Below, piece after piece: positions 7,933 to 32,714 of a stretch of DNA of 33,091 nt (its first letter is position 1; every line of letters begins with the position of its first letter). Source of the DNA: a bacterium (GTDB lineage Bacteria; Chloroflexota; Dormibacteria; Aeolococcales; Aeolococcaceae). The stretch covers positions 1 through 33,091 of the forward strand of contig JAJZLL010000038.1 of the NCBI GenBank assembly GCA_021803465.1, read 5' to 3'. The translations under genes and the position numbers were made by a program. The notes beneath the pieces are model-generated. The model worked only from the letters and a program-made list of their open reading frames with translations. It was not told the origin of the DNA and did not search any database.

Positions 7933-8534
7933 CAGTGCATGCCTCCAATGAGATACACAAAGGTGAAGATGAAGATCCAGACGAGATCAAGAAAGTGCCA
8001 GAAGATGGACAGCAGGGCCAGCCGTCTTGTCGTGCCCCTGGTGAGACCAGACTTGAACAGTGTTGCGATCGTAACTGCTATCCAGAGCAGACCAACAGTG
8101 ATATGCAGTCCGTGCGTGCCCACAAGAGTGAAGAATGCGGAAAGCATGGCGCTTCTGTGCCAGCTCTCCCCATGAATGATGAGACCGTGAAACTCGAAAA
8201 GCTCCATTGTGAGGAACGTCGCTCCAAGAAGGAACGTCAGCAGGAGAAAGAGGATGACTCCGTTTCTCCTGCGGTGCTGTGCAGAAAGAATTGCCATTCC
8301 GCACGTGAAGCTGCTTGCAAGCAGCACCAGCGTTTCCACAAGCGCATATGGGAGGTCCACGATCTGCGCCATATCAGGTCCACCAGCAGTCCTTGTCCGC
8401 AGAACAGCAAACACTGCGAAGAGGCTTGCGAAGACGACACAGTCCGTCATGACATACACCCAGAAGCCAATGAGGGTTGTGATGTCCTTTTCCTGGTGCT
8501 CTGACCGTGTGAGTGGGTGGGTAGTGGCACTCAT
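7932..8534 (-). CDS. cyoC: cytochrome bo3 quinol oxidase subunit III
   Basis: A 200-residue, five-helix haem-copper oxidase subunit III of the quinol-oxidase (CyoC) length. Diagnostic stretches are GFWVYVMTDCVVFASLFAVF, LVLLASSFTCGMAI, TFLTMELFEFHGLI, FFTLVGTHGLHITVGLLWI and the C-terminal WHFLDLVWIFIFTFVYLIG. It binds no metal; it stabilises subunit I and its proton uptake. The start ATG overlaps the cyoB stop in ATGA, and the stop overlaps the cyoD start, so the subunits are likely translated as one coupled unit. Confidence 0.95.
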   Translation of the reverse strand: MSATTHPLTRSEHQEKDITTLIGFWVYVMTDCVVFASLFAVFAVLRTRTAGGPDMAQIVDLPYALVETLVLLASSFTCGMAILSAQHRRRNGVILFLLLTFLLGATFLTMELFEFHGLIIHGESWHRSAMLSAFFTLVGTHGLHITVGLLWIAVTIATLFKSGLTRGTTRRLALLSIFWHFLDLVWIFIFTFVYLIGGMH

Positions 8535-10540
8535 GCAGCAACACCTCCCTTCGCACTCCTGCCCGTTCCAGTAAGGAGTTCCTTCGGAATCACATACTCG
8601 GAATCATCAGTCGATGATGTGCGGTGAACCAGCATGACTATGCACAGAATTGCAGCGAGCGCTCCCAGCCAGTACATGTGCCAGACCATGGAGAAGCCGA
8701 CAAGAAAGCCTCCCATGCCAATGAAAAAGCCTGTTGGCGTGTTCATTGGGAGCATGATGTCGTCATACGGATGGGTGGCCGTAACCTGAAGCGGATCCGG
8801 CTCTCTCCCCTCCTTTGCTTCCCAGAAGGGATCTCTACTGTGCACAACAGGAGTGATGGCGAAGGTGTAGGCAGGCACTGGTGAGGGCAGGGCCCATTCG
8901 AGCGTCCTTCCATTCCACGGATCCCCAGTGAGATCCCGTCGTGCATGCCTCGTCCGTACGCTTCCCACAAAGAGTCCAACCTGGATTGCGACACCGACTG
9001 CAATGATGGCTGTACCCGCAGCTGCAACTGCGAAGAGTGGCTGCCATCCTGTTGATGCTGCGTAATGGCTCATGCGCCGTGTAACACCCATGAAGCCAAG
9101 GACGTAGAGAGGGGCGAAAGCGAGGATGAATCCGACAAACCAGCACCAGAATGACCTCTTGAGCCACTTCTCACTGAGCGTGAATCCGAATATCTTGGGA
9201 AACCAGTAGATGAGGCCCGCAAAGTCAGCGAAGAGAACTCCGCTCACAATCATGGTGTGGAAATGGGCCACAAGAAACAGACTGTTGTGAAGCTGGTAGT
9301 CAAGGCCTGGCACAGCAAGTATGACTCCTGTCACACCACCAAGCGTGAAGAGGACGACAAAGCCCATGAAGAAATACATTGGAGAAGCAAAGTGGATTCT
9401 TCCCCTGTACATTGTGGCGAGCCAATTGAAGATCTTCACTCCTGTGGGAATGGAGATGATCATGGTCGCAATGCCAAACACCGCATTCACATCCGTGCCA
9501 GCTCCCATCGTGAAGAAGTGATGCACCCAGACTGTGTACGCAAGAATGGTGATAGCGCCAAGTGCTGCGACCATCGAGGTGTACCCAAACAGCGGCTTTC
9601 TCGAGAAGGTCGCCACCACTTCGGAGAAGATGCCGAATCCTGGCATGACGAGGATGTACACTTCCGGATGTCCCCAGGCCCAGATGAGATTGACATACAT
9701 CATCATGTTGCCACCCCCACCAATGGTGAAGAAATGCGTGCCAAGCGACCTGTCTAGAAAGAGGAGCGCGAGGGTGACAGTAAGGATAGGGAAGGCGAAC
9801 ATGACTAGCGTCATGCTGCACAGCACACTCCAGACAAACATGGGCATCCGCATGAGTTTCATCCCCGGACACCGCATCCTCAGTATCGTGACGACGAAGT
9901 TGATGCCTGAGAGCATGCTCCCTATACCTGCAATCTGGAGACTCCAGATCCAGTAGTCCACACCCACACCCGGACTGAACCGCAGCTCCGACAGCGGCGG
10001 ATAGGAGAGCCAGCCAGCTGCCGAGAAAAATCCGATGCCAAGCGATGTGTTGGCGATCGCCATTCCCGCAAAAAAGAGCCAGAAGCTTGCAGCATTCATG
10101 ACGGGGAAGGCGACATCGCGTGCACCGATCTGCATTGGCACAACGAGATTGACGATTCCAAAGAGGAATCCCATCGCCACAAAGAAGATCATGATTGTGC
10201 CATGGGCGGAGAAGATCTGCTGGAAGGTTGCTGTTGGCATGATCCCACTTGACGCTCCCACTCCCGTGAGCTGCTGGGCACGGATGAGGATAGCGTCAGA
10301 CCCGCCTCGGATGAGCATGAGCATGGAAACAATGAGATACATCACGCCTATCCGCTTCGGATCCACTGTCGTGATCCACTCCTTCCAGAGCCAGTTCCAC
10401 CTCTTGAGCCTGGTAACGATGCCAGCTGCTATGAGGAGGATCGCGATCATCGAAATGAACGCGATCGTTGTCATGGGGTCGCTCGGCAGCACATGTGTCG
10501 AGAAGCGGCCAAGAAGGATATTGGCGATCAGGAGATGCAT
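8531..10540 (-). CDS. cyoB: cytochrome bo3 quinol oxidase subunit I
   Basis: The catalytic subunit (669 residues, close to E. coli's 663): oxidises quinol, reduces O2 to water and pumps protons. Ligands are present: H113 (low-spin haem), H291-E293-Y295 (WGHPEVY, CuB and cross-linked Tyr), H340/H341 (WVHHFFTMG), and H426 and H428 (VAHFH; high- and low-spin haem). The D-channel D142 (GARDVAFP) and K-channel K369 (PTGVKIFNW) are also present. Aligned to E. coli CyoB with a +7 offset, the quinol-site residues R71, D75 and Q101 are kept as R78, D82 and Q108, but H98 is replaced by T105 (PTATFQQIF versus PPHHYDQIF). The ribosome site AAGGAA lies 7 bases before the ATG. It follows cyoA after 85 bases and overlaps cyoC. 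Confidence 0.98.
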   Translation of the reverse strand: MHLLIANILLGRFSTHVLPSDPMTTIAFISMIAILLIAAGIVTRLKRWNWLWKEWITTVDPKRIGVMYLIVSMLMLIRGGSDAILIRAQQLTGVGASSGIMPTATFQQIFSAHGTIMIFFVAMGFLFGIVNLVVPMQIGARDVAFPVMNAASFWLFFAGMAIANTSLGIGFFSAAGWLSYPPLSELRFSPGVGVDYWIWSLQIAGIGSMLSGINFVVTILRMRCPGMKLMRMPMFVWSVLCSMTLVMFAFPILTVTLALLFLDRSLGTHFFTIGGGGNMMMYVNLIWAWGHPEVYILVMPGFGIFSEVVATFSRKPLFGYTSMVAALGAITILAYTVWVHHFFTMGAGTDVNAVFGIATMIISIPTGVKIFNWLATMYRGRIHFASPMYFFMGFVVLFTLGGVTGVILAVPGLDYQLHNSLFLVAHFHTMIVSGVLFADFAGLIYWFPKIFGFTLSEKWLKRSFWCWFVGFILAFAPLYVLGFMGVTRRMSHYAASTGWQPLFAVAAAGTAIIAVGVAIQVGLFVGSVRTRHARRDLTGDPWNGRTLEWALPSPVPAYTFAITPVVHSRDPFWEAKEGREPDPLQVTATHPYDDIMLPMNTPTGFFIGMGGFLVGFSMVWHMYWLGALAAILCIVMLVHRTSSTDDSEYVIPKELLTGTGRSAKGGVAA

Positions 10541-20639: not shown

Positions 20640-23600
20640 CTAGTTCGGACGATGCTGCCAGCGTTTTCTGTACAGCAGCACAAAAGCGACTGCAAGACAT
20701 GCTCCGCAGGCAAGGAGCGCAACGAGAAGCGCCTGCCACGTGAGGAGCACATTGCCGATCTTTCCAAGGAATGACAGTCCTGAAACAGGAAGGGTGCCGT
20801 GTGGCGCCTGCACATGGGCAGTTCCCAGGAAGGTCGCGTGGGGACGAAATTCCACCACACCCTTCTCCGGGGTGAGTGCCACGCCTCCAGCTGTCGCAAG
20901 CCTGGCTCCACCTGCAAGAAGCACTTCACCATTGGAGAGAGTCACTGCAGAGGCGTTCATCTCCGGAGAAGGTAGGTTCCCTGCGTTCTTCCACGTCGCA
21001 GTCTTCACATCGAACACATCGGCACTGTCAAGCATCGTGGTTCCTGCCAATCCTCCTGCAACAAGCACATCACCATTTGGCAGCTGGCTCACACTGGGCA
21101 TGACACGGGTTGTCCGCATGCCAGCACTCTCTATCCACACGCCCGATGCAGGATCAAAGATGTCCGCACTGGCACCATCTCCCACAACAAGCGCCGTTCC
21201 ATCGGGAAGCGTGACTGCTTCCGCAAAAAATCGAGGCTGGGACATCGTTCCTGCCCGACTCCAGTGGCCGATCGAAGGGTCGTACATCTCAGCTGCAGCA
21301 GTTGGATGACCTGTGCTGTCCAGTCCTCCTGCCACAAGGATGCTTCCGTTGTGCAGGACAGTCGAAGCTGCAAATGCGTGGGCAGCATGCATGGATGCAG
21401 CTGCTGTCCACGTTCCGCTTCCCAGATGAAACACCTCTGACGAGGCAAGTGGCGCATGGTGCATCCCGAGCCCACCTGCTGCGAGAACCTCGCCCCCTGG
21501 GAGCAGTGCAGTGGCAGCAAACGCACGGGGAGTTGCCATCGCACCCACCTCATGCCATGTGCCCGTTGCAACCTCATAGATTTCCGCAGAGGAAAGAGGG
21601 AGATCCTGTGAGCCAATGCCTCCAGCAACGAGGACATTTCCGTCAGGCAGCAGCTGTGCCATGGCGCCGAGCCTGGCTGCGTTCATTGATGCAGTCTGAG
21701 TCCAGTGTCCATCCGCAGGATTGAAGATCCATGCCTGTGATGTCGGACTCCCCTGCGCAGTGAACCCTCCAGCCAGAAGGACATCCCCTCCATGAAGGGG
21801 AACGAGCACACTGTCACTGACTGGCTGTGCAAGAGGAGGCGCATGGTACCATGCGCCCACTGCGTTCCCTTCGCTCGGCACTGCAGTGACATCCGATATC
21901 GCCTGGGAACCACCCTGTATCGGTCCAGTGCTCCGAAATGCACCCGCTAGCACGATGGGATTCTCTGTTGCAGTTCCTGAGCTGATGAACTGCACATGGG
22001 ATCCAGGCCGCACAACTCGCACTGGCTCACCTGTTTTCGGGACATAGCTCAGGAGCACTGTGCTCGTTGCACTGTTACCCGCACCGCCATTGATCGCTGT
22101 TCCAGGCGTGTACCGTGTGGACACTGAAGCTGTGCCGTTGTAGTAGAACGTGATGGAATACCCATCCGCCTCAAGGGTCACGCCACTGCTGTTCACCGAG
22201 AAGCCTGTCTTGCCAATGGTCACATTGACATACGTGTATGACCAGTAGTAGTCGCACGGATACGGAGCCCAGCCATCCCACCAGCACGTGGCGCCAGGAA
22301 GATACGCGCCAAGCTGCACATTGACATTTCCCCACAGGAAGGCGCTGATCCCACTAGTGCTGACGTTGATTGCGACCGATGCGGAAAGTGAGCCTCCGAC
22401 ATACAGCGCAGGTCCAATGTCCGACCCTCCTGGTCCCAGAGAAAGCGTGCCGTCAAATTCAAAATCGAACATGAGTGGCGATGTGCTTGCATCGAGCTTC
22501 ACAGTGATTGGTCCAACAGTGAGACCGCCTAGCGTGACTGAGGAGAGGGTTCCCAGGAAGTGGATGCTCGGTGGAGCAAATCCGATATTCGCCATGACAT
22601 TGAGGTTCACCCCCTCAACGGATGCCTGGAAGGCGAGTCCGAATCCCGCGGGGTAGACCGTTTGGGCAATCGTTGCCCCTTCAGGACAGAGGTACAGCGA
22701 TGCGAAGTCAATCTCAAGAAGGTTTCCTTGCCCGAAATATGCGAACGGTTCCAGTGCGGGAGTTCCGGAATTTGCTGTCCCGATGGAGAGGGAAAGCAGG
22801 AACGGGTCAAAGTTGAAGGCAAAGCTGATTGGGGCATTGTTCATGTAGCCAATGACATTCGCCACTGTGGACGGAAGCGACGTGATTGTCCCCTCGAAGC
22901 CGACATTTGGCAGGGGTACTCCATCGCCCCAGCTCACGCCTCCCTGGAGAGCTGCGCACTTCACTGTAAGACCGTTGAGACCAAATGCATCGACCCATCC
23001 AGCACTGGTTCCAGAGCAGTTGCCAAGCGAGAGACTGAGATTGATTCCCGTATCCGATACTGTCAGCGCTCCAGTGAGTGTCACGGATGAGGCAGCTCCA
23101 CCATTTCCTGGCGAGGGAAGGTTCAATGTGGTGTCGAGTCCCAGTGAAAACGATTCAACACTCGGAGACAGCACGACAGCGACAAACCCATCATCCAGAA
23201 CAAGTGAGGCTCCCCCAGTGCTGAAGATGGTAAGCCCAGTACCGAGTGATATGGACACCTTGAAGGTGTACGTGTCAGTGGCAAAGTCGGCTGTTCCAAC
23301 TGCAGTGAGTGCAGTGTTCGCTGGAAGTGAGAGCCCAATGTGGGTAAGCATGCTCGTGAAGCTCTGCGGAAGATCAAGGGCGATGGCGAAATCAATCCCC
23401 TGGGTGAGATTGATTGCTCCGAGGGATGGGCTTCCCGTGGCGAAATTTGCCATGTCCGCACTTGCGTAGTAGAGATACGCACTGTTTCCTGAGCTTCCAA
23501 TCCACTGTGAGAGATCAACTGATGCACCGATGACAAATCCCGCACTGCTGTAGGCGATGACTGCAGTCGCCTGGATAGTGCCACCGCCTGGCATCGAAAC

Positions 23601-26600
23601 AGTGAACGGAGCCGTGATTGCAACCGCAAAGGTGCCGGACGTGTCGCTGATCGTGAAGGTGGGATCGGAAAGTGTCACTGCGTTGTTGAGAGCGCTGAAG
23701 CTCAGGGAAGGAATCGATGCAGTGAGGATGAAGGTGCCTGCAGTGATGTCGTACGTCCCTGATGCCGTGACAGAGCCGGAAACGCTCCCGAGGGAGATCG
23801 TCATCCCTCCTGATACGCATACCCAGAGATCTCCCACCTTTGACACCGTGCACCCTGTGGATGGCGCACCATTGCCAATGCCAAGAGACGTCACGGTAAA
23901 GCTGTAGCCAGTGCTTGATATCGCAAGCAGTGGACTCTGGTTGGTGCCAGTGGCAAGGATGACAAATGTCACTGCTCCCGAAGTGTCCGTAAGGGTTCCA
24001 GAGAGCGTTGCGTCAATGGTGAATCCAGGAGCTGGTGTGAAACTCTGCGCCTGGGCCAGGGTGAGTGAGAGCTCCCACGAACTGAGAGAGGTCACAGTAC
24101 CCGACAGGGCAATGGATCCAACATTGTCTGCACTCACTGTTCCCGAGATGGTGAGTCCTGCAGTTCCGAGATCGAAGGACAGGTTCGAAATCGTGACAGG
24201 CACACCAGAGAATGGGGTGATCGGACCGGGAATCGCTCCCTTTGTGCAACTGCTCCCCGTGACAGTGCAGCTGGCAACATCCGCAGTGATGTTTCCGGAT
24301 GCGGAACGGGTCACTGTACCCACCATTCCGAAGCTTGCGCCGAACACTGTCATGTTCGAAACAGTCACACTTCCCGCAAATGAGCCGTCCGTGCTGATGG
24401 TGATGGTCATGGTGAGTGTTGCGGAGGGCTCAGCAGGTATCGGAATCGTGCCATCAGCAGTGAAGGTGAGTGAGCCCCCTGCAAAGGTGAGTGTCGCTCC
24501 TGTGATGCTTCCTCCATCGGGAAGGGTGAGTATGGGGTAGTTTGCAGGTGAGGAAATCGTTGCAGTGAATGTAGGAGTGGCTCCAGGAGTCCAGGATGCG
24601 GAAAAGAAGATGGTCCCACTTGAAGCAACGGAAAAGCCAAGCGCATTGAGCGCGCCTGCAGTTGCAGGATCGAGCTGGTAGAGAGCAAAGGCGTTGAATC
24701 CCTTGGCAAGCGTGACAGTCCCAATCCCGCTAACACCAGTGTTGAACGCGCTCACAGGTGCGGATGCATAGACAAAGACGCCCGTGAGGGGAACATTGAG
24801 GTTGCTGAGGCTGAGATTCGTTATTGCTATGATGAGAGGTCCATTCGTGTCAGTGACCGTCATGATGATCGGCTTTGCACTCAGGCTGGGTACCAGCACT
24901 GATGCCTGTCCATTCACGCTGAGGGAACTGCCAATCCCCACAATGGAGAGCTGCTGGAGTGTCACTGTGAACCCGGGAGCCACCTGGATGGTCGGTGTGG
25001 CAATGGTGGAATCGAGCCCCAACGCGAACGCGCCTGAGCGGAGGTTGAGCGTTCCATCAATGCCTGCTGTGAAGCCGGAGGCTCCTCCCACACTCACCAT
25101 GCCCTGCATGGAAAGCGTGGGATCAGTGGGTGTCGAGAGTCCTCCTCCAGTGCAGCCATTTGCGGGGGAAGAAATGCCATACGCAAATGCGATGCAGTAC
25201 ACGGTGAGTGCCACTCCACTTCCAGATGGCGCAAATGTTGCGAGAGCTGGAGATGCGCTTCCCGATGTGGGAGAAGTCCCTGCTCCAATGTCATAGGTCA
25301 CTGCTCCGCTGTCGGAGATGGTCACTGTTCCCGACACCGTTGCAGTGAATGTGAGACCAGACACGGGAGACCAGCTCGGAAGGGCTGTTGGCGAAGCAGC
25401 AATGCTCCACGTCCCAGCAGTGTATGTTCCAGTTAAGGGAAGGGTGACAGGATGCGCTGCGCTACCAAATGTTCCTGTTGCGCTCACTGAGAGTCCTGCA
25501 GTGCTTGACAGTGTGAGCGATATGCCTCCAACAGACATGCCTGGAAGCGGTGCGTACGTGCCAGTGTTCGAAAGGGTGATGGAGCCGCTTCCTCCATTGA
25601 GGCTTCCCGAAGAGCCAGTGCTCACTGCGAAGGTGCCGTTCCACGTGCTGCCAAAGGGGACATTGTGGAGACTCACAGTCCCTCCTGCACTGACTGCTGA
25701 ACCTGACCAGCCTGCAGTGATGTCTACCAGCGCATATGGAGATGAGCTCGGGACAGTGCCTGGGCCAATGTGGATCGCAATGTCCTGGGGAGAGCCGCTC
25801 GTGAATGAGAGAGTGAGGTCATACGGCGTGGAGGATCCTGCCGCTCCGAAGGGCAGGGACACTCCAGCTGCTGTCAACACACCTGACGTGATTGTCCCAA
25901 GCGTGCCCCCTCCAGCAGTAGCCGAGGAGATTGAAAAGCAGAGATCTTCCGTTGTGCCAAGCGGTACAGGAGAAAGCTTCCACCCTGATGGGAAGCCAAG
26001 GTTCCCCCCTGTGATGCACAGCTCCGTACCCCCCGTCGTGTCAGCAATGTACCCTGAAAGGCCAGTTCCACCCACACTCCCCCCAAGGAAACTCAAGTGT
26101 ACTGCTGACAGGGAAATGGTAGTGTCCCGTGTGCAGGAGCCACTGAGACCAGCTGCTGTCCCAGCAAGGGTGGATGCTCCTCCCAAACTTCCAGGCGTGA
26201 AGGAGAGTGATGCTCCTGCAGAGCCAATGGCTGTCCAGAGCGTCTGGAATGGGGCGCTGCATGCTCCTCCCGGAGTGAATGCTGCAGTTCCACTGGTTGG
26301 TACTGCGAAGTTGGGACTTGGTGTCACTGTTGCAGTGAATGTGTCGGTTGCAGTCGGAGCTGGAAGCGAGCAGGTTGCTGCTGCTGCCCCGTTCGCTTCG
26401 GGTATGAGCGTGACAGCACTGCAGCTGCTTGGATTTGTTGGAGATCCAGAGAAAACCACAGTGCCTGCTGGTGGTGCAGGAGAACCTGCACTGGTGTTGG
26501 TCACTGTCGCTGTGATGAGAATGTGCCCAGCAATCGATGGATCAGGACCAACAGTGACCCCCAGTGAGGTGGATGCGGGCGTAATGGTGATGGATGCGGG

Positions 26601-29600
26601 AAGCGCTGTGCTTCCCTCGTAGGCGCCTCCCGCATACGCGTATGCAGCTCCAAACGTGTAGGGAGTGGAGAACACATCCTCCTCGGGAAGCGTGCATGAC
26701 GCACTGCCTCCAACGACAGCGACATTCACGCAGATGGGGGATCCTGATGCTCCAAGAATTGCTGAGGCGGATGCGCTCCCTGGAATCGTGTCACTGAAGG
26801 CAATGGTTCCACCCGACACGGGAGTGCCTGAGGAATCCACTGTGGCAGTGAGTGTGATGGGCGTACCGAACGCTACGGACGAGCCTCCTGGTGAGACTGC
26901 AAGCGTCGTTGTGGTTGGAAGTCCGCTCACACTGTAGTAGCTCGGTTCGGACATCGTGTCCGATCCAGCAGTGAGCACGGGAAGTGCTGGTGAGGGAGTG
27001 AACATGGCAACGAGCGCATCCTGCCCCCCAGCTGTTGGCCTGTACTGGCATGAAGCTGTGGCAGTTCCCGGAGAGGAGCCTGCCTGCACGGCAACGTTCA
27101 TGCAGTTAGTGGCATTGCCATTCTCGTAGAAGCTCATGGTGCCAGCTGGTGTGGCAGGCGAGGATCCTGTTGGCAGCACGGTATGCACTGTAGCTGTCAC
27201 TGTGAGGGACGACCCGCCCGTGACACTCACAGGATGGGTGTCCGAGCCAAAGGGACTCACTGTGATCTGTGTTGGATCCGGCTTTGGAGTGTAGGCTGTC
27301 GTCGCTTCCGTGCCAGGCTGCCAGTCCACACAGTCTGTCGCTGTGCTTCCCTGAGGACAGAATGTCGCTCCATAGATGTGCTGTGAGGCATCCGTTGGCG
27401 ACATCGCCACTGTGCATGTGGCAACACTTGTTCCAGGACTGCCACTCACGGGGTTCGGTGATGCAGGGGAGGAGTTGGTGCAGACTGCGGGCGCTCCATT
27501 TTCCGTGAAGGCGACTGTGCCGCTTCCCAGTGGCGCTGCATGGGTGTTGCTCGCATCAGTGATCGTTGCAGTTACCGTGATGGGGACACCGACATACGGG
27601 TCGTTCTGGGCAGCGCTCACGGACACTGCAGTGGACGTCGCTGCGGGCGTGATCGTGTAGAGCACATTCGTGGACGTCCCGGTCGAGCTGCTTTGGGAGG
27701 TCTCGCTGTCTCCCTGGAAGCTCGCAACAAGAGCTCCCTGGGTATTCGAGGGAACATAGGTGCAGGAGGACGCTGTGCCTGTCATGACACCACCTCCTAT
27801 TGGCACAAGCTTATTGAACGGTGCAGGATTCAGTTGCCCAATCCCGGTGCAGGTTGCGGTCGGGCCACCCACACCATACGTGTACACCACTTCTCCAGTT
27901 CCCGATGTGTCCGTCGTGGGAATGTTCGTGACTGTCGCAGTCGCAGTCTCCGGGGTTCCATAGGTGATTGTTGCGCCTGTGGGATCCGGAGCCACTGCAA
28001 GTGTCGTCGTGGTCGTGAACTTCGCGACATCAAGGGACTGTGGAGTGGGGGGAGTCTGGCCTAAGGAGGGAGCATTGAGGTTGTCATTGTTCCCACCATA
28101 GACGGCAGTGAACTCGTAGTTTGTACCAGGCGTCGCTGTGAACGGGCAGGACGGATTCGCAGCACTTTTGGCAGCGAGATTGCCTGGTATCGTCTGCTGG
28201 CAGGCAGACATCGAGGGAGTGGGAAATGTTGTCGTGGTGCTTTTCGAATAGAGGAAGTTCACTATTCCATCCGTTGTCCCGGAATCCTGCCCAAGTGAAC
28301 CTATGGCGTATGAGACTGGTCTGACTGTCACTGACAGCGTGTACTGCGTTGCGGACACAGGCGTGATGATGACATTGCCGATTGTTGTCGGATCTTTGAG
28401 TCCAGTGAGGGCGAGAGAGGAACTCGTCTGCTGGGCTGTGACACCATCCCCCGAGTAGCTTGCCGTGTAGCTGAGCGTGCCGACTGCAGGAAGCGTGATG
28501 GAACATGCTGCTGTACCGCTGCTGTCCAGTGCGACTGCCACACAGGCGGACCCTGATCCACTGCCTCCTGAATAGTTGAACGTGACAGTTCCTGTGGGTA
28601 TGTAGGTTGGATTCGATGGTGTCGTGACATGTGCAGTGAGCGTGATGGCACCCACTGCTCCCGCATTCGCGGAACTTGAGCTGCTCGTGAGCTGCACAGT
28701 TGGCGTGGCAAGGGGCCAGGACACTGTGACGGATCCCGCTGAGTTGGATCCCCCACCGCCACCAGGAGTGTCCGAGACTCCACTCACATATGTTCCGTTG
28801 TACCCGTCGGAGCCGCCTGCACCGCCACCGCCAGAACTGTCCGTGCTTCCGCCGCCACCTCCGCCACCGCCGAGCCAGCCGCCACCTGCACCGCCACCGC
28901 CGCCTCCGGATCCGCCAGCGCCACTGCCACCACCACCACTTCCACCAGAGCTCGATGAGCCAGAACTGCCACCTCCTCCCTGGTCTACTGAGCATGCCCC
29001 GTTGTTGGAGCCACTGCCACTACCACCGCCTGATGCGCCTGCTGTGCCGCCATAGCCATTGCAGGTACCACCACCATTAGATCCATTGCCACCATTGGAG
29101 GACGTTGCTCCGCCTGTTCCTCCTGTCGAGGGACCCTGTCCAGATCCGTATCCACCGTAGGAGCCACCACCGCCAGCTGCAATCATGCGGGTGCCAGCAA
29201 CAGAGATGCTCGAGCTTCCGCCACCACCACCACCACCGTTGTGGCCACTGCCGCCAGAACCTCCGTCAGGCCACCCTCCAGCACCACCCGTGCCGCCATT
29301 GTCACCGTTCCCAGCTCCACCAACATTGATGGAAAGCGATGCTCCACTCGACACAGACAGTGCACCAGAAATCTTCCCCCCTGCCCCATTGCCACTTCCA
29401 GCTCCGCCAGCGCCACTGACGGACACATTCACTGACGTGAGACCTGATGGAAGTTGCAGACTCTGGGTTGCTCCCGTGTATCCGTACGTGCACTGTTCCA
29501 CATAGTTTCCTGTTGTGCCTGTCTGTGAACATGCAGCAGGAAGCGGGTTGCTGAGGGCAAGGGCCCGAGCATCAAGGGACAGCTGGTTCAGCGGAACGCG

Positions 29601-29789
29601 CTCCGTGGTCGTCGCATATCCTGGAGGAAGCTGGAATGTCTGCGGTCCAGCATGGCTTTGTGTAGGAGCGGGCTGCACAGCTGCAGGATTGACAACCACA
29701 TTGGCAAGTGACGTTGTCACTGCAAATCCCAGAAGCACAAGGAGCGTGAGCTGACGGGCACGACTCACTGGCACATGCAGTCTACGCAT
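20640..29789 (-). CDS. giant secreted, membrane-anchored surface protein (about 3049 aa)
   Basis: One uninterrupted frame. Approximate parts: signal peptide 1-29 (RRLHVPVSRARQ then LTLLVLLGFAVTTSLA); glycine-rich domain 124-348; about seven Ig-like repeats 352-1167 (each 100-130 residues, opening with TTTLAVSP-type strands, like bacterial Ig-like families); an unassigned Ser/Thr/Gly- and valine-rich beta region 1170-2580; a kelch-type beta-propeller 2659-2982 with about seven blades of LPDGxVLVAGG...W type; then LPVSG (3000-3004), a transmembrane helix (about 3020-3040) and a basic tail RKRWQHR. This is a cell-surface display layout, suggesting adhesion to cells or polymers. The start is uncertain: the frame also has GTG/ATG at 29846/29843 with a poor site; 29789 makes the signal peptide begin correctly. 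No matching whole protein is known to me. Confidence 0.85.
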   Translation of the reverse strand: MRRLHVPVSRARQLTLLVLLGFAVTTSLANVVVNPAAVQPAPTQSHAGPQTFQLPPGYATTTERVPLNQLSLDARALALSNPLPAACSQTGTTGNYVEQCTYGYTGATQSLQLPSGLTSVNVSVSGAGGAGSGNGAGGKISGALSVSSGASLSINVGGAGNGDNGGTGGAGGWPDGGSGGSGHNGGGGGGGSSSISVAGTRMIAAGGGGSYGGYGSGQGPSTGGTGGATSSNGGNGSNGGGTCNGYGGTAGASGGGSGSGSNNGACSVDQGGGGSSGSSSSGGSGGGGSGAGGSGGGGGGAGGGWLGGGGGGGGSTDSSGGGGAGGSDGYNGTYVSGVSDTPGGGGGSNSAGSVTVSWPLATPTVQLTSSSSSANAGAVGAITLTAHVTTPSNPTYIPTGTVTFNYSGGSGSGSACVAVALDSSGTAACSITLPAVGTLSYTASYSGDGVTAQQTSSSLALTGLKDPTTIGNVIITPVSATQYTLSVTVRPVSYAIGSLGQDSGTTDGIVNFLYSKSTTTTFPTPSMSACQQTIPGNLAAKSAANPSCPFTATPGTNYEFTAVYGGNNDNLNAPSLGQTPPTPQSLDVAKFTTTTTLAVAPDPTGATITYGTPETATATVTNIPTTDTSGTGEVVYTYGVGGPTATCTGIGQLNPAPFNKLVPIGGGVMTGTASSCTYVPSNTQGALVASFQGDSETSQSSSTGTSTNVLYTITPAATSTAVSVSAAQNDPYVGVPITVTATITDASNTHAAPLGSGTVAFTENGAPAVCTNSSPASPNPVSGSPGTSVATCTVAMSPTDASQHIYGATFCPQGSTATDCVDWQPGTEATTAYTPKPDPTQITVSPFGSDTHPVSVTGGSSLTVTATVHTVLPTGSSPATPAGTMSFYENGNATNCMNVAVQAGSSPGTATASCQYRPTAGGQDALVAMFTPSPALPVLTAGSDTMSEPSYYSVSGLPTTTTLAVSPGGSSVAFGTPITLTATVDSSGTPVSGGTIAFSDTIPGSASASAILGASGSPICVNVAVVGGSASCTLPEEDVFSTPYTFGAAYAYAGGAYEGSTALPASITITPASTSLGVTVGPDPSIAGHILITATVTNTSAGSPAPPAGTVVFSGSPTNPSSCSAVTLIPEANGAAAATCSLPAPTATDTFTATVTPSPNFAVPTSGTAAFTPGGACSAPFQTLWTAIGSAGASLSFTPGSLGGASTLAGTAAGLSGSCTRDTTISLSAVHLSFLGGSVGGTGLSGYIADTTGGTELCITGGNLGFPSGWKLSPVPLGTTEDLCFSISSATAGGGTLGTITSGVLTAAGVSLPFGAAGSSTPYDLTLSFTSGSPQDIAIHIGPGTVPSSSPYALVDITAGWSGSAVSAGGTVSLHNVPFGSTWNGTFAVSTGSSGSLNGGSGSITLSNTGTYAPLPGMSVGGISLTLSSTAGLSVSATGTFGSAAHPVTLPLTGTYTAGTWSIAASPTALPSWSPVSGLTFTATVSGTVTISDSGAVTYDIGAGTSPTSGSASPALATFAPSGSGVALTVYCIAFAYGISSPANGCTGGGLSTPTDPTLSMQGMVSVGGASGFTAGIDGTLNLRSGAFALGLDSTIATPTIQVAPGFTVTLQQLSIVGIGSSLSVNGQASVLVPSLSAKPIIMTVTDTNGPLIIAITNLSLSNLNVPLTGVFVYASAPVSAFNTGVSGIGTVTLAKGFNAFALYQLDPATAGALNALGFSVASSGTIFFSASWTPGATPTFTATISSPANYPILTLPDGGSITGATLTFAGGSLTFTADGTIPIPAEPSATLTMTITISTDGSFAGSVTVSNMTVFGASFGMVGTVTRSASGNITADVASCTVTGSSCTKGAIPGPITPFSGVPVTISNLSFDLGTAGLTISGTVSADNVGSIALSGTVTSLSSWELSLTLAQAQSFTPAPGFTIDATLSGTLTDTSGAVTFVILATGTNQSPLLAISSTGYSFTVTSLGIGNGAPSTGCTVSKVGDLWVCVSGGMTISLGSVSGSVTASGTYDITAGTFILTASIPSLSFSALNNAVTLSDPTFTISDTSGTFAVAITAPFTVSMPGGGTIQATAVIAYSSAGFVIGASVDLSQWIGSSGNSAYLYYASADMANFATGSPSLGAINLTQGIDFAIALDLPQSFTSMLTHIGLSLPANTALTAVGTADFATDTYTFKVSISLGTGLTIFSTGGASLVLDDGFVAVVLSPSVESFSLGLDTTLNLPSPGNGGAASSVTLTGALTVSDTGINLSLSLGNCSGTSAGWVDAFGLNGLTVKCAALQGGVSWGDGVPLPNVGFEGTITSLPSTVANVIGYMNNAPISFAFNFDPFLLSLSIGTANSGTPALEPFAYFGQGNLLEIDFASLYLCPEGATIAQTVYPAGFGLAFQASVEGVNLNVMANIGFAPPSIHFLGTLSSVTLGGLTVGPITVKLDASTSPLMFDFEFDGTLSLGPGGSDIGPALYVGGSLSASVAINVSTSGISAFLWGNVNVQLGAYLPGATCWWDGWAPYPCDYYWSYTYVNVTIGKTGFSVNSSGVTLEADGYSITFYYNGTASVSTRYTPGTAINGGAGNSATSTVLLSYVPKTGEPVRVVRPGSHVQFISSGTATENPIVLAGAFRSTGPIQGGSQAISDVTAVPSEGNAVGAWYHAPPLAQPVSDSVLVPLHGGDVLLAGGFTAQGSPTSQAWIFNPADGHWTQTASMNAARLGAMAQLLPDGNVLVAGGIGSQDLPLSSAEIYEVATGTWHEVGAMATPRAFAATALLPGGEVLAAGGLGMHHAPLASSEVFHLGSGTWTAAASMHAAHAFAASTVLHNGSILVAGGLDSTGHPTAAAEMYDPSIGHWSRAGTMSQPRFFAEAVTLPDGTALVVGDGASADIFDPASGVWIESAGMRTTRVMPSVSQLPNGDVLVAGGLAGTTMLDSADVFDVKTATWKNAGNLPSPEMNASAVTLSNGEVLLAGGARLATAGGVALTPEKGVVEFRPHATFLGTAHVQAPHGTLPVSGLSFLGKIGNVLLTWQALLVALLACGACLAVAFVLLYRKRWQHRPN
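28745..29420 (-). repeat. glycine-rich low-complexity tract in the giant gene
   Basis: About 225 codons dominated by Gly and Ser (GGAGGSGGG-like runs), read on the plus strand as CCACCG/CCTCCA repeats. Short repeats of this kind are prone to length change. The protein pattern (GAGGAGSG at the front, SVTVSWP closing) resembles glycine-rich domains on bacterial surface proteins. Confidence 0.85.
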
Positions 29790-29820
29790 GCATGCCACAC
29801 ATGGACGGATAGCCGAACAT
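29782..29820 (-). CDS. 12-residue leader peptide ORF overlapping the giant gene start
   Basis: A 13-codon frame MFGYPSMCGMHA-stop. A purine-rich site GCGAGGGGAG lies 3-7 bases before its ATG, better than any site before the giant gene's own ATG. Its TAG stop overlaps that ATG: the last eight bases, ATGCGTAG, contain the giant gene's start codon in another frame. Ribosomes finishing the leader would therefore be placed at the main start, implying translational coupling. This is read from sequence; translation is not shown. Confidence 0.4.
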   Translation of the reverse strand: MFGYPSMCGMHA

Positions 29821-29983
29821 GGTCTCCCCTCGCATGGACCCATCACACCTGCACGGTCGATGGATCATGCCACCCTGAACTCTATACTGCTGCACACACA
29901 TGACCATTCATGTCACGTAGGTAGCACTATATCATTCCCCAGATCACATCTGCCCGAGTGCTCAAGTGTGTGGATGGCACAAC

Positions 29984-30011
29984 GGGGATGGCTCCAGCTG
30001 GAGCCATCCCC
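29984..30011 (-). terminator. 28-bp perfect palindrome after acs, likely terminator hairpin
   Basis: GGGGATGGCTCCAG (29984-29997) is followed directly by its exact complement CTGGAGCCATCCCC (29998-30011), so RNA from either strand can form a very stable hairpin with about 12 paired bases. It lies 15 bases after the acs stop and upstream of the giant gene. On the minus strand the bases after it are GTTGTGCC, without a U-run, so it is an imperfect intrinsic terminator or an mRNA 3'-end stabiliser. A smaller repeat ACATGA-CCAT-TCATGT (29898-29913) lies nearer the giant gene. Confidence 0.7.
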
Positions 30012-30026
30012 ATTTGCACATGCGTC

Positions 30027-32021
30027 TTACTCTTCAGTTCCCGGATGCGCCTTGAGATTCTCATCAATCATCTTGACGACTGTGGGATCCAGGAGGGTTG
30101 TCACATCTCCTAGTTCCCGGTGCTCCGCCACATCGCGAAGCAGTCGCCGCATGATCTTGCCGCTTCTTGTCTTCGGAAGCTCTGGAGTGAGAATGATCTG
30201 CCGCGGTTTGGCGATGGGTCCAATGGTAGTGGCGACATGGTCACGGAGGTCCGAAACAAGCTGGCTTCCATCTTCCTCCGACTTCGCCTGCTCACCCTTT
30301 ACTGTGACAAACGCAACTATAGCCTGGCCAGTAATGGGATCCGATGCGCCAACTACTGCTGCCTCGGCGACAGCTGGATAGCCAACAAGCGCATGCTCGA
30401 TCTCCGTTGTGGAGATGCGATGACCCGAGATGTTCATGACATCATCCACCCGACCGAGAAGCCAGATGTCTCCATCCTCATCCCGCTTGGCTCCATCACC
30501 TGCGAAGTACATCCCCGGAAACCGTGACCAGTAGGTGTCCCTGTAGCGCTCGGGATCGCCCCAGATACCTCGAAGCATCCCTGGCCAGGGCTTCCTGATG
30601 ACAAGGTAGCCACCCGCACCGTTGGGTACGGAATCCCCATGGTCGTCCACAACGTCCGCATCTATGCCAGGAAATGCGCGCATTGCTGCTCCCGGCTTCG
30701 TTGACGTGATGCCGGGAAGGGGTGTGATCATGATGCCTCCCGTCTCTGTCTGCCACCAGGTGTCGACAATGGGACAGTTGTCACGTCCTATGTACTTCCG
30801 GTACCACATCCACGCCTCGGGATTGATGGGCTCGCCAACTGAGCCAAGGAGGCGGAGTGAAGACAAGTCATGGGAAGCTGGATAGGACTCCCCCCACTTC
30901 ATGAGGGTACGGATCGTGGTTGGTGCAGTGTACAGGATGCTGACCTTGTATTCCTCGACAATCTTCCACCACCGATCCTTTCCGCCTGCGTCCGGCGTTC
31001 CCTCGTACATGACTGAGGTTGATCCGTTCACCAGCGGTCCATAGACGATATAGCTGTGTCCTGTCACCCAGCCAATGTCTGCAGCAGTCCAGAAAATGTC
31101 ACTCTCCGGCTTGAGATCGAAGATGTACCGGTGCGTCGTTGCTGTATGCACGAGATACCCGGCAGTGGTATGGAGGATGCCCTTTGGCCGTGCGGTTGTG
31201 CCGCTCGTGTACATGATGTAGAGCGGATGCTCCGCATCGAACGCCTCTGGCGTATGTGTAGTCGACTGGCGGTCAACCAGGTCATGCCACCACACATCCC
31301 GACCTTCAACCCAGTTCACCTCTCCACCAGTCCGGCGCACGACAAGCACGGAACGGACATTGGGACAGGTTTCGAGAGCCGCATCCACCTGGGGCTTGAG
31401 CGGAAGGGCTGTCCCCCGACGGAACTGTCCATCCGCTGTGATGATGACACGCGCGTCCGCATCCTGGATTCTGCCTGCAAGGGCTTCGGATGAGAATCCA
31501 CCAAACACCACGGAGTGCGGTGCGCCTATCCGTGCGCAGGCAAGCATTGCGACAACAGCCTCGGGAATCATTGGCATGTAGATTGCGACTCTTTCGCCTG
31601 CTGTGACTCCAAGCTCCTCAAGTGCATGAGCTGCCTGGCTGACCATGGCAAGGAGATCGCGGTACGTAATGACTCGATGTTCTCCTTCGGGTTCTCCAAC
31701 CCAATAGTAGGCGACCTTGTCTCCTCGTCCCTCTTCGACATGCCTGTCAACGCAGTTGACTGCCGCATTGAGCTTTCCGCCAACAAACCACTTCGCAAAC
31801 GGGAGATCCCACTCAAGTGTGGTGTCCCAGCGCTTCTCCCATTTCAGATGCTCCGCTTCCTTGGCCCACCATGCGACTGGATCCTGTGCAGCCTCCTCGT
31901 ATATGGATGGCTGGGCGTTCGCACTCTTGGCAAATGCCTCGGAAGGGGAGAAATGCCGATGCTCATGCAGCAGTGCAGCAAGCGCCTCGCCCTGGATAGA
32001 GCCAATTGTATCGTTGCTCAT
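30027..32021 (-). CDS. acs: acetyl-CoA synthetase (AMP-forming)
   Basis: Makes acetyl-CoA from acetate, ATP and CoA via acetyl-adenylate (664 residues, normal for Acs). Landmarks: an N-terminal WWAKEAEHLKWEKRWD segment, VFGGFSSEAL, the nucleotide loop YTSGTTARPKGILHT (271-285), WTAADIGWVTGHSYI, DTWWQTETGG, the hinge region with GRVDDVMNISGHRIS, and the C-terminal PKTRSGKIMRR, whose Lys is the conserved catalytic and acetylation site in this family. SGTTARPKG is a variant common in actinobacterial Acs. The ribosome site AGGAGG lies 6-7 bases before the second ATG (32021), preferred over the first at 32024. It lies 21 bases after satP, so the two form an acetate operon. A strong palindrome follows the stop. 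Confidence 0.97.
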   Translation of the reverse strand: MSNDTIGSIQGEALAALLHEHRHFSPSEAFAKSANAQPSIYEEAAQDPVAWWAKEAEHLKWEKRWDTTLEWDLPFAKWFVGGKLNAAVNCVDRHVEEGRGDKVAYYWVGEPEGEHRVITYRDLLAMVSQAAHALEELGVTAGERVAIYMPMIPEAVVAMLACARIGAPHSVVFGGFSSEALAGRIQDADARVIITADGQFRRGTALPLKPQVDAALETCPNVRSVLVVRRTGGEVNWVEGRDVWWHDLVDRQSTTHTPEAFDAEHPLYIMYTSGTTARPKGILHTTAGYLVHTATTHRYIFDLKPESDIFWTAADIGWVTGHSYIVYGPLVNGSTSVMYEGTPDAGGKDRWWKIVEEYKVSILYTAPTTIRTLMKWGESYPASHDLSSLRLLGSVGEPINPEAWMWYRKYIGRDNCPIVDTWWQTETGGIMITPLPGITSTKPGAAMRAFPGIDADVVDDHGDSVPNGAGGYLVIRKPWPGMLRGIWGDPERYRDTYWSRFPGMYFAGDGAKRDEDGDIWLLGRVDDVMNISGHRISTTEIEHALVGYPAVAEAAVVGASDPITGQAIVAFVTVKGEQAKSEEDGSQLVSDLRDHVATTIGPIAKPRQIILTPELPKTRSGKIMRRLLRDVAEHRELGDVTTLLDPTVVKMIDENLKAHPGTEE

Positions 32022-32042
32022 CATTACCCTCCTGTGGGTATG

Positions 32043-32654
32043 TCAGTGGCCCTGGATCGCCAGTGAATGTGTGGGGATCACATTGCGACCAAATGTCGCG
32101 TTCACGACGCCAGCAAAGGAAGCATACCAAGCTGCAATGGCTGTCAGGATACCGAGATATCCACCAATCTGGTTGAACATCGTCGATGATGTCCCAGCAC
32201 CGATGGTGAGTGCAAGGAAGGTGAGAGTCAGCAGGACAAACACGAGTGCCACGGCAGTGGACACCCTGAAGGACGCAATCATCATGTAGCAGGTGAAGAT
32301 GGTCCAGGAAAGGAGAAATACGGTGACTGCAGCATTGACATCTCCTGCATTGCCAATGGCTGGTGCAACAAACTTCCCAAACACGAAATACGCAATCCAG
32401 AATGAACCGTATGACGTGAATGCGAGTGCGCCAAACGTGTTCTTCCGCACGAATTCCCACATTCCTGCAGCGAACTGGGCAATACCTCCATATACAAGAG
32501 CGAGTGCGAGTGCTGCAGCAGCAACACCTTTCGCTCCAGTGCCAATCTGGGCATTGGAAATGCTCAGAACGAATGTTGTCATCGCAAATGCAGCAAGACC
32601 AAGGGGTCCTGGATCTGCGACTGCTGGCTGTGCTGATGGACTGTTCGATGCCAT
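32043..32654 (-). CDS. satP: acetate uptake transporter, SatP/YaaH (GPR1/FUN34) family
   Basis: A 203-residue, six-helix membrane protein that moves acetate, or succinate-acetate with protons, into the cell. The family signature NPxPLGL is present as DPGPLGLAAFAMTTFVLSISNA (from residue 14), and a second family stretch is seen in YGGIAQFAAGMWEFVRKNTFGALAFTSYGSFWI. GGAGGT lies 6 bases before the ATG at 32654, which excludes an upstream start. The gene is first in a pair with acs (21-base gap), so uptake and activation of acetate are co-expressed. Family and substrate class are strongly supported by this pairing. Confidence 0.92.
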   Translation of the reverse strand: MASNSPSAQPAVADPGPLGLAAFAMTTFVLSISNAQIGTGAKGVAAAALALALVYGGIAQFAAGMWEFVRKNTFGALAFTSYGSFWIAYFVFGKFVAPAIGNAGDVNAAVTVFLLSWTIFTCYMMIASFRVSTAVALVFVLLTLTFLALTIGAGTSSTMFNQIGGYLGILTAIAAWYASFAGVVNATFGRNVIPTHSLAIQGH

Positions 32655-32714
32655 GTCGCACCTCCTTTTCAACCGCTCACATACGTGAGGCAAGGTACAG
32701 CACTTTGCATCTCC

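Follow-up and report, generated by a model that had tools for sequence, protein, structure and literature searches.

The window, i.e. the whole stretch of 33,091 nucleotides that was analysed, belongs to contig 6 in a draft genome (2.03 Mb, 73 contigs, 91% complete), and its G+C content is about 50-60%, compared with a class median of 66.9% (PMC10608941). A metagenome-derived draft of the same genus, 'Candidatus Dormiibacterota bacterium clean372' (hereafter the sister genome), is a Dormiibacterota bacterium, and the genome of the window was therefore assigned to the Dormibacteria, which are placed in or next to the Chloroflexota and which reportedly have few giant genes (PMC10608941). A single uninterrupted frame of 3,068 aa was found on the minus strand, listed with a GTG start. 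However, an in-frame ATG at 29789 (residue 20, MRRLHVPVSRARQLTLLVLLGFAVTTSLA) agrees better with the signal peptide than this GTG does, and is the likely translation start. The features discussed below are the following:

20640..29846, minus strand: whole open reading frame, 3,068 aa, likely start ATG 29789
29703..29789, minus strand: predicted signal peptide, residues 20-48, read from the sequence
28722..29528, minus strand: glycine-rich region, residues 107-375, colinear in alignment with a PF12810 protein of the same genome
26307..28703, minus strand: seven Ig-like repeats, residues 382-1180, from Pfam Big_3_5 matches and start motifs
25863..26306, minus strand: lead-in of the middle region, residues 1181-1328, no family, fast-evolving (about 49-61% identity to the ortholog)
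24552..25862, minus strand: middle unit 1, residues 1329-1765, colinear with unit 2 at an offset of about 435
23253..24530, minus strand: middle unit 2, residues 1773-2198, colinear with unit 1
22017..23204, minus strand: conserved beta core, residues 2215-2610, from dN/dS and identity to the ortholog
20877..21803, minus strand: kelch propeller of 6-7 blades, residues 2682-2990, from Kelch_1, structure matches and blade motifs
20778..20792, minus strand: LPVSG motif, residues 3019-3023, TPVSG in the sister species
20673..20729, minus strand: hydrophobic membrane segment, residues 3040-3058, followed by the basic tail YRKRWQHRPN, read from the sequence
29984..30011, minus strand: perfect 12-bp inverted repeat with an AGCT loop, read from the sequence

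The upstream gene, encoding acetyl-CoA synthetase, ends at 30027, and the inverted repeat that comes just after it, between this gene and the giant gene, is the likely end of the upstream transcript. The giant gene is therefore probably transcribed on its own; a promoter-like site was looked for and none was found. The acetyl-CoA synthetase gene (30027-32693) adjoins a frame that was named, by reading, as a GPR1/FUN34/YaaH-like acetate transporter. Elsewhere in the window, the best match in the sister genome of a cytochrome oxidase subunit I-like protein (8531-10540) is only 45% identical, in contrast to 93% for acetyl-CoA synthetase; its ortholog may be absent from the sister draft or replaced there.

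The modules that an earlier note had described at the two ends of the protein were all recovered. The putative signal peptide consists of a basic n-region and the hydrophobic stretch LTLLVLLGFAV. It is followed by a glycine-rich tract at about residues 150-375, with Gly above 40% within residues 201-400. The glycine-rich region has no Pfam match, the PF12810 cut-off not being reached, and with bias correction HMMER gave no significant match to ALK/LTK (the corrected score was negative). On the other hand, it aligns colinearly with a PF12810 protein of the same genome (z=4.9 against block shuffles), so that a relationship to the ALK/LTK glycine-rich domain is probable. In residues 382-1180, seven Ig-like repeats were counted, four of them scored by Pfam Big_3_5 (PF16640; four stretches, 72 bits with a cut-off of 35.5) and the other three recognized by their start motif and by reading.

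A linker separates the end of the middle region, at residue 2610, from the kelch part, which starts at 2682. The presence of a kelch propeller is certain from its matches to Kelch_1 (102 bits, E=9e-30) and to Keap1-type structures (E about 1e-26), with blade motifs at residues 2686, 2735, 2784 and further. Weak matches to NCBIfam GlxA and to the Pfam glyoxal-oxidase family across the same part might suggest a secreted oxidase akin to galactose oxidase or GlxA, but the GlxA score is 47 bits against a cut-off of 800, and residues 2671-2995 contain zero cysteines, so that the Cys-Tyr radical cofactor cannot form. This rules out the classical cofactor of galactose oxidase and GlxA, and makes an oxidase of this kind extremely improbable.

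At the C-terminus, the hydrophobic segment and its basic tail indicate that the protein is probably membrane-anchored. The genome of the window and the sister genome have one sortase match each. Three Ig-repeat proteins of the window's genome end in VPATG or VPSTG, 2-5 residues ahead of the membrane segment and basic tail, whereas in the giant protein the motif lies 15-16 residues ahead of the membrane segment. Because of this longer gap, and of the change from LPVSG to TPVSG in the sister species, processing of the giant protein by sortase is doubtful.

Between the Ig-like repeats and the kelch linker lies a middle region of about 1,400 residues (about 1181-2610). As had been claimed, hydrophobic residues tend to occupy every second position: measured as lag-2 minus lag-1 autocorrelation, the alternation gave z=5.3 for residues 1181-1650, 4.4 for 1651-2090 and 6.9, the highest value, for 2091-2610, against 1.3 in the Ig part and -0.1 in the kelch part. 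The proposal that the region forms one long, uniform beta-solenoid fared worse. Residues 1329-1765 and 1773-2198 are tandem copies of one unit of about 435 residues, as revealed by self-comparison (blastp E=2.7e-7; a single colinear alignment with an offset of about 435) and by shuffles that preserve composition and alternation, which gave z=7.1 for 1331-1650 versus 1766-2090 and z=4.4 for the parts after them. The duplication is followed by a distinct and far more conserved core, in which a third copy of the unit was sought in residues 2215-2610 without a significant result, and which contains a W/Y/C-rich stretch, GATCWWDGWAPYPCDYYWSYTY. The hydrophobicity autocorrelation of the middle revealed no rung-length period, the top lag being 2 and the next, a weak one, 89. 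At the level of sequence, the lack of a short rung period, together with the duplication and the unique core, speaks against a uniform short-rung solenoid, though the middle may still adopt a solenoid fold. AlphaFold models of residues 1420-2619 (two alignment rows) and of unit 2 (three rows) had pLDDT of 32 and 34, with every residue under 50 in both.

No homology of the middle to a named family was found in Pfam, NCBIfam, PHROGs or PDB sequences, in agreement with the earlier statement that this part could not be assigned. Searches that covered 110 class genomes and 400 phylum genomes returned only marginal matches beyond the sister genome, none was obtained in plasmids or viral contigs, and a scan of 84,980 species genomes, which rested on two short peptides and which distant relatives would escape, detected the sister alone. 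Among the weak profile matches in phylum genomes (E 0.0016-0.06), four frames were read (a sensor histidine kinase, two lipoprotein-like frames and an isoleucyl-tRNA synthetase), appeared unrelated by eye and were taken as chance. A tblastn match to a Synechococcus phage was weak (29%, E=7e-3), and a Bactofilin match (E=0.014) was under its cut-off. Literature searches on matching architectures or on bacterial glycine-rich domains yielded nothing useful. Judging from these comparisons, the middle is restricted to the genus among the sets searched.

The ortholog in the sister genome lies on three contigs: one with the glycine-rich end, the Ig repeats and the start of the middle (C213), with one reading-frame change at about residue 1050; a second that covers the middle through the kelch part (C231); and a third (C41) running from kelch through the C-terminus and into a HAD phosphatase gene, the same neighbour as in the window. 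Residues 1474-1734 fall in a gap between the contigs of the sister genome. The order of the segments is identical, and every segment aligned is under purifying selection, which spans both joins, Ig/middle on C213 and middle/kelch on C231. Synonymous divergence is near saturation in all segments (dS about 1.1-1.7) and the protein has been retained, which rules out a frame open by chance and leaves a chimeric assembly very unlikely. The draft state of both genomes could favour an assembly or frame artefact, but 3,068 open codons and a counterpart with the same segment order and selection across the joins leave this explanation with almost no likelihood. The single giant frame that had been described, and for which an assembly artefact had been named as a danger, is thus a real gene.

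Constraint differed widely along the protein. The dN/dS ratios, which are approximate since they come from one species pair with near-saturated dS, were 0.17 for the Ig repeats, 0.26 for residues 1181-1475, 0.08 for 1737-2090, 0.044 for 2091-2300, 0.017 for 2301-2610 and 0.125 for kelch; the corresponding dN values, whose ranking is independent of dS, were 0.29, 0.40, 0.11, 0.056, 0.024 and 0.17. As a control, the neighbouring housekeeping gene for acetyl-CoA synthetase (93% identity) gave a dN/dS of 0.029 and a dN of 0.037. Residues 2301-2610, 95.5% identical between the species and reaching 97-98% in most 100-residue windows of 2301-2550, are therefore under the strongest constraint within the protein, stronger than that on acetyl-CoA synthetase. 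A core kept as slowly evolving as a housekeeping enzyme probably carries out an important task.

Taken together, the domain matches in one frame, the signal peptide and the C-terminal membrane segment support the description of a giant multidomain surface protein. The reading that we favour, and consider reasonably probable, is that of a genus-restricted, exported and modular surface protein, anchored in the membrane, in which the beta core next to the membrane is conserved and the outer stalk is variable. The signal peptide would direct secretion and the C-terminal hydrophobic segment would hold the protein at the envelope, from where the genome's single sortase could possibly pass it on to the wall. 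With the C-terminus anchored, the core and the kelch part would lie close to the cell, with the diverging Ig repeats directed outward as a stalk; the order from the cell outward would thus be anchor, kelch propeller, conserved beta core, the two 435-residue beta units, Ig stalk and glycine-rich tip. We infer a division of labour in which core and propeller together would do the work, as a fixed platform binding a ligand common to the genus (candidates are envelope components, polymers and hydrophobic compounds), while the Ig stalk, variable between species, would project from the cell. By analogy, adhesion or attachment is a plausible task for the protein.

Other readings were also weighed. 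Both kelch and glycine-rich domains are known to serve as binding modules, and anchored Ig-repeat giants are common in the family, so a plain modular adhesin, with the Ig repeats and the middle as stalk and the glycine-rich tip or the kelch part binding a surface or a sugar, has to be considered. However, such a stalk would not be expected to be under stricter constraint than an enzyme of core metabolism when the supposed kelch binder diverges, and the strongest constraint lies toward the membrane-anchored end and not at the outer tip, where the binding head of a simple adhesin would sit; we regard this explanation as unlikely. Alternatively, the middle might be shaped as a long, hydrophobic groove or tube of beta structure, in which lipids or hydrocarbons are bound or passed along at the cell surface, in the way of AsmA/TamB or bridge-like lipid-transfer proteins. 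The strong alternation, strongest in the most conserved part, and the tandem duplication of a large unit would fit a groove, but ordinary beta sandwiches are also expected to alternate, the two AlphaFold models are of very low confidence, and no homology of the middle to any such family was found, with no Pfam or NCBIfam profile match to an AsmA/TamB-like one. Moreover, the phylum is usually counted among the bacteria that lack an LPS outer membrane (PMC10608941), and therefore the known role of TamB does not apply. This explanation seems to us quite unlikely. A further proposal concerns residues 1329-2610, i.e. the duplicated 435-residue beta unit plus the distinct 400-residue core, which might be a new extracellular domain family under housekeeping-level constraint, with a new fold or groove and a conserved, lineage-specific ligand; we put this forward only tentatively.

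Returning to the anchored protein with a conserved core and a variable stalk, a core stricter than a core metabolic enzyme combined with a diverging stalk points to a fixed extracellular task in these widespread uncultured soil bacteria. The core offers a defined target of 400 residues for structural work, and whether the middle is a new fold will decide how interesting the finding is.

With respect to known systems, the architecture had been called uncharacterised, which holds for the middle, present in no family searched, but not for the remaining parts, as Ig giants are common and glycine-rich plus Ig proteins occur in the family, and kelch modules are common in the class: 33 of the 41 genomes searched had Big_3_5 proteins, 35 of 110 genomes of the class had kelch-type matches, and at least two genomes had the glycine-rich plus Ig combination. 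The giant protein shares signal peptide, Ig runs and membrane segment with basic tail with the Big_3_5 surface proteins of the same family of Dormibacteria (own-genome examples on contigs C22, C52 and C28), which blastp with the whole protein matched over the Ig part only; the middle region is absent from all of those that were compared. The example on C22 (L031:5110-8892, minus strand) is a 1,261-aa protein with a signal peptide, PF12810 over its cut-off, six Big_3_5 repeats and a VPATG-type anchor; those on C52 (L032:3355-5574) and C28 (L033:2797-4860) combine an N-terminal half resembling a beta-propeller with one or two Ig repeats and an anchor of the VPSTG type, and are likely substrates of the single sortase, encoded on C63. 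Like bacterial PF12810 proteins (L031, and locus L078 of genome G008), the giant has a glycine-rich region followed by Ig repeats, but this region is under the Pfam cut-off and the match vanishes under bias correction. It resembles LPXTG sortase substrates in its C-terminal motif, hydrophobic segment, basic tail and the sortase in the genome, and differs from the VP(A/S)TG proteins of its own genome in motif and spacing. Its kelch repeats resemble those of Keap1-type and galactose oxidase/GlxA proteins, with clear matches to solved structures; unlike galactose oxidase and GlxA, its propeller has no cysteine and hence no radical copper cofactor, and unlike in known kelch-propeller proteins, it is embedded in a giant surface protein. 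Large surface proteins composed of Ig repeats, propellers and anchors are thus a known kind, and what is new here is the unassigned middle.
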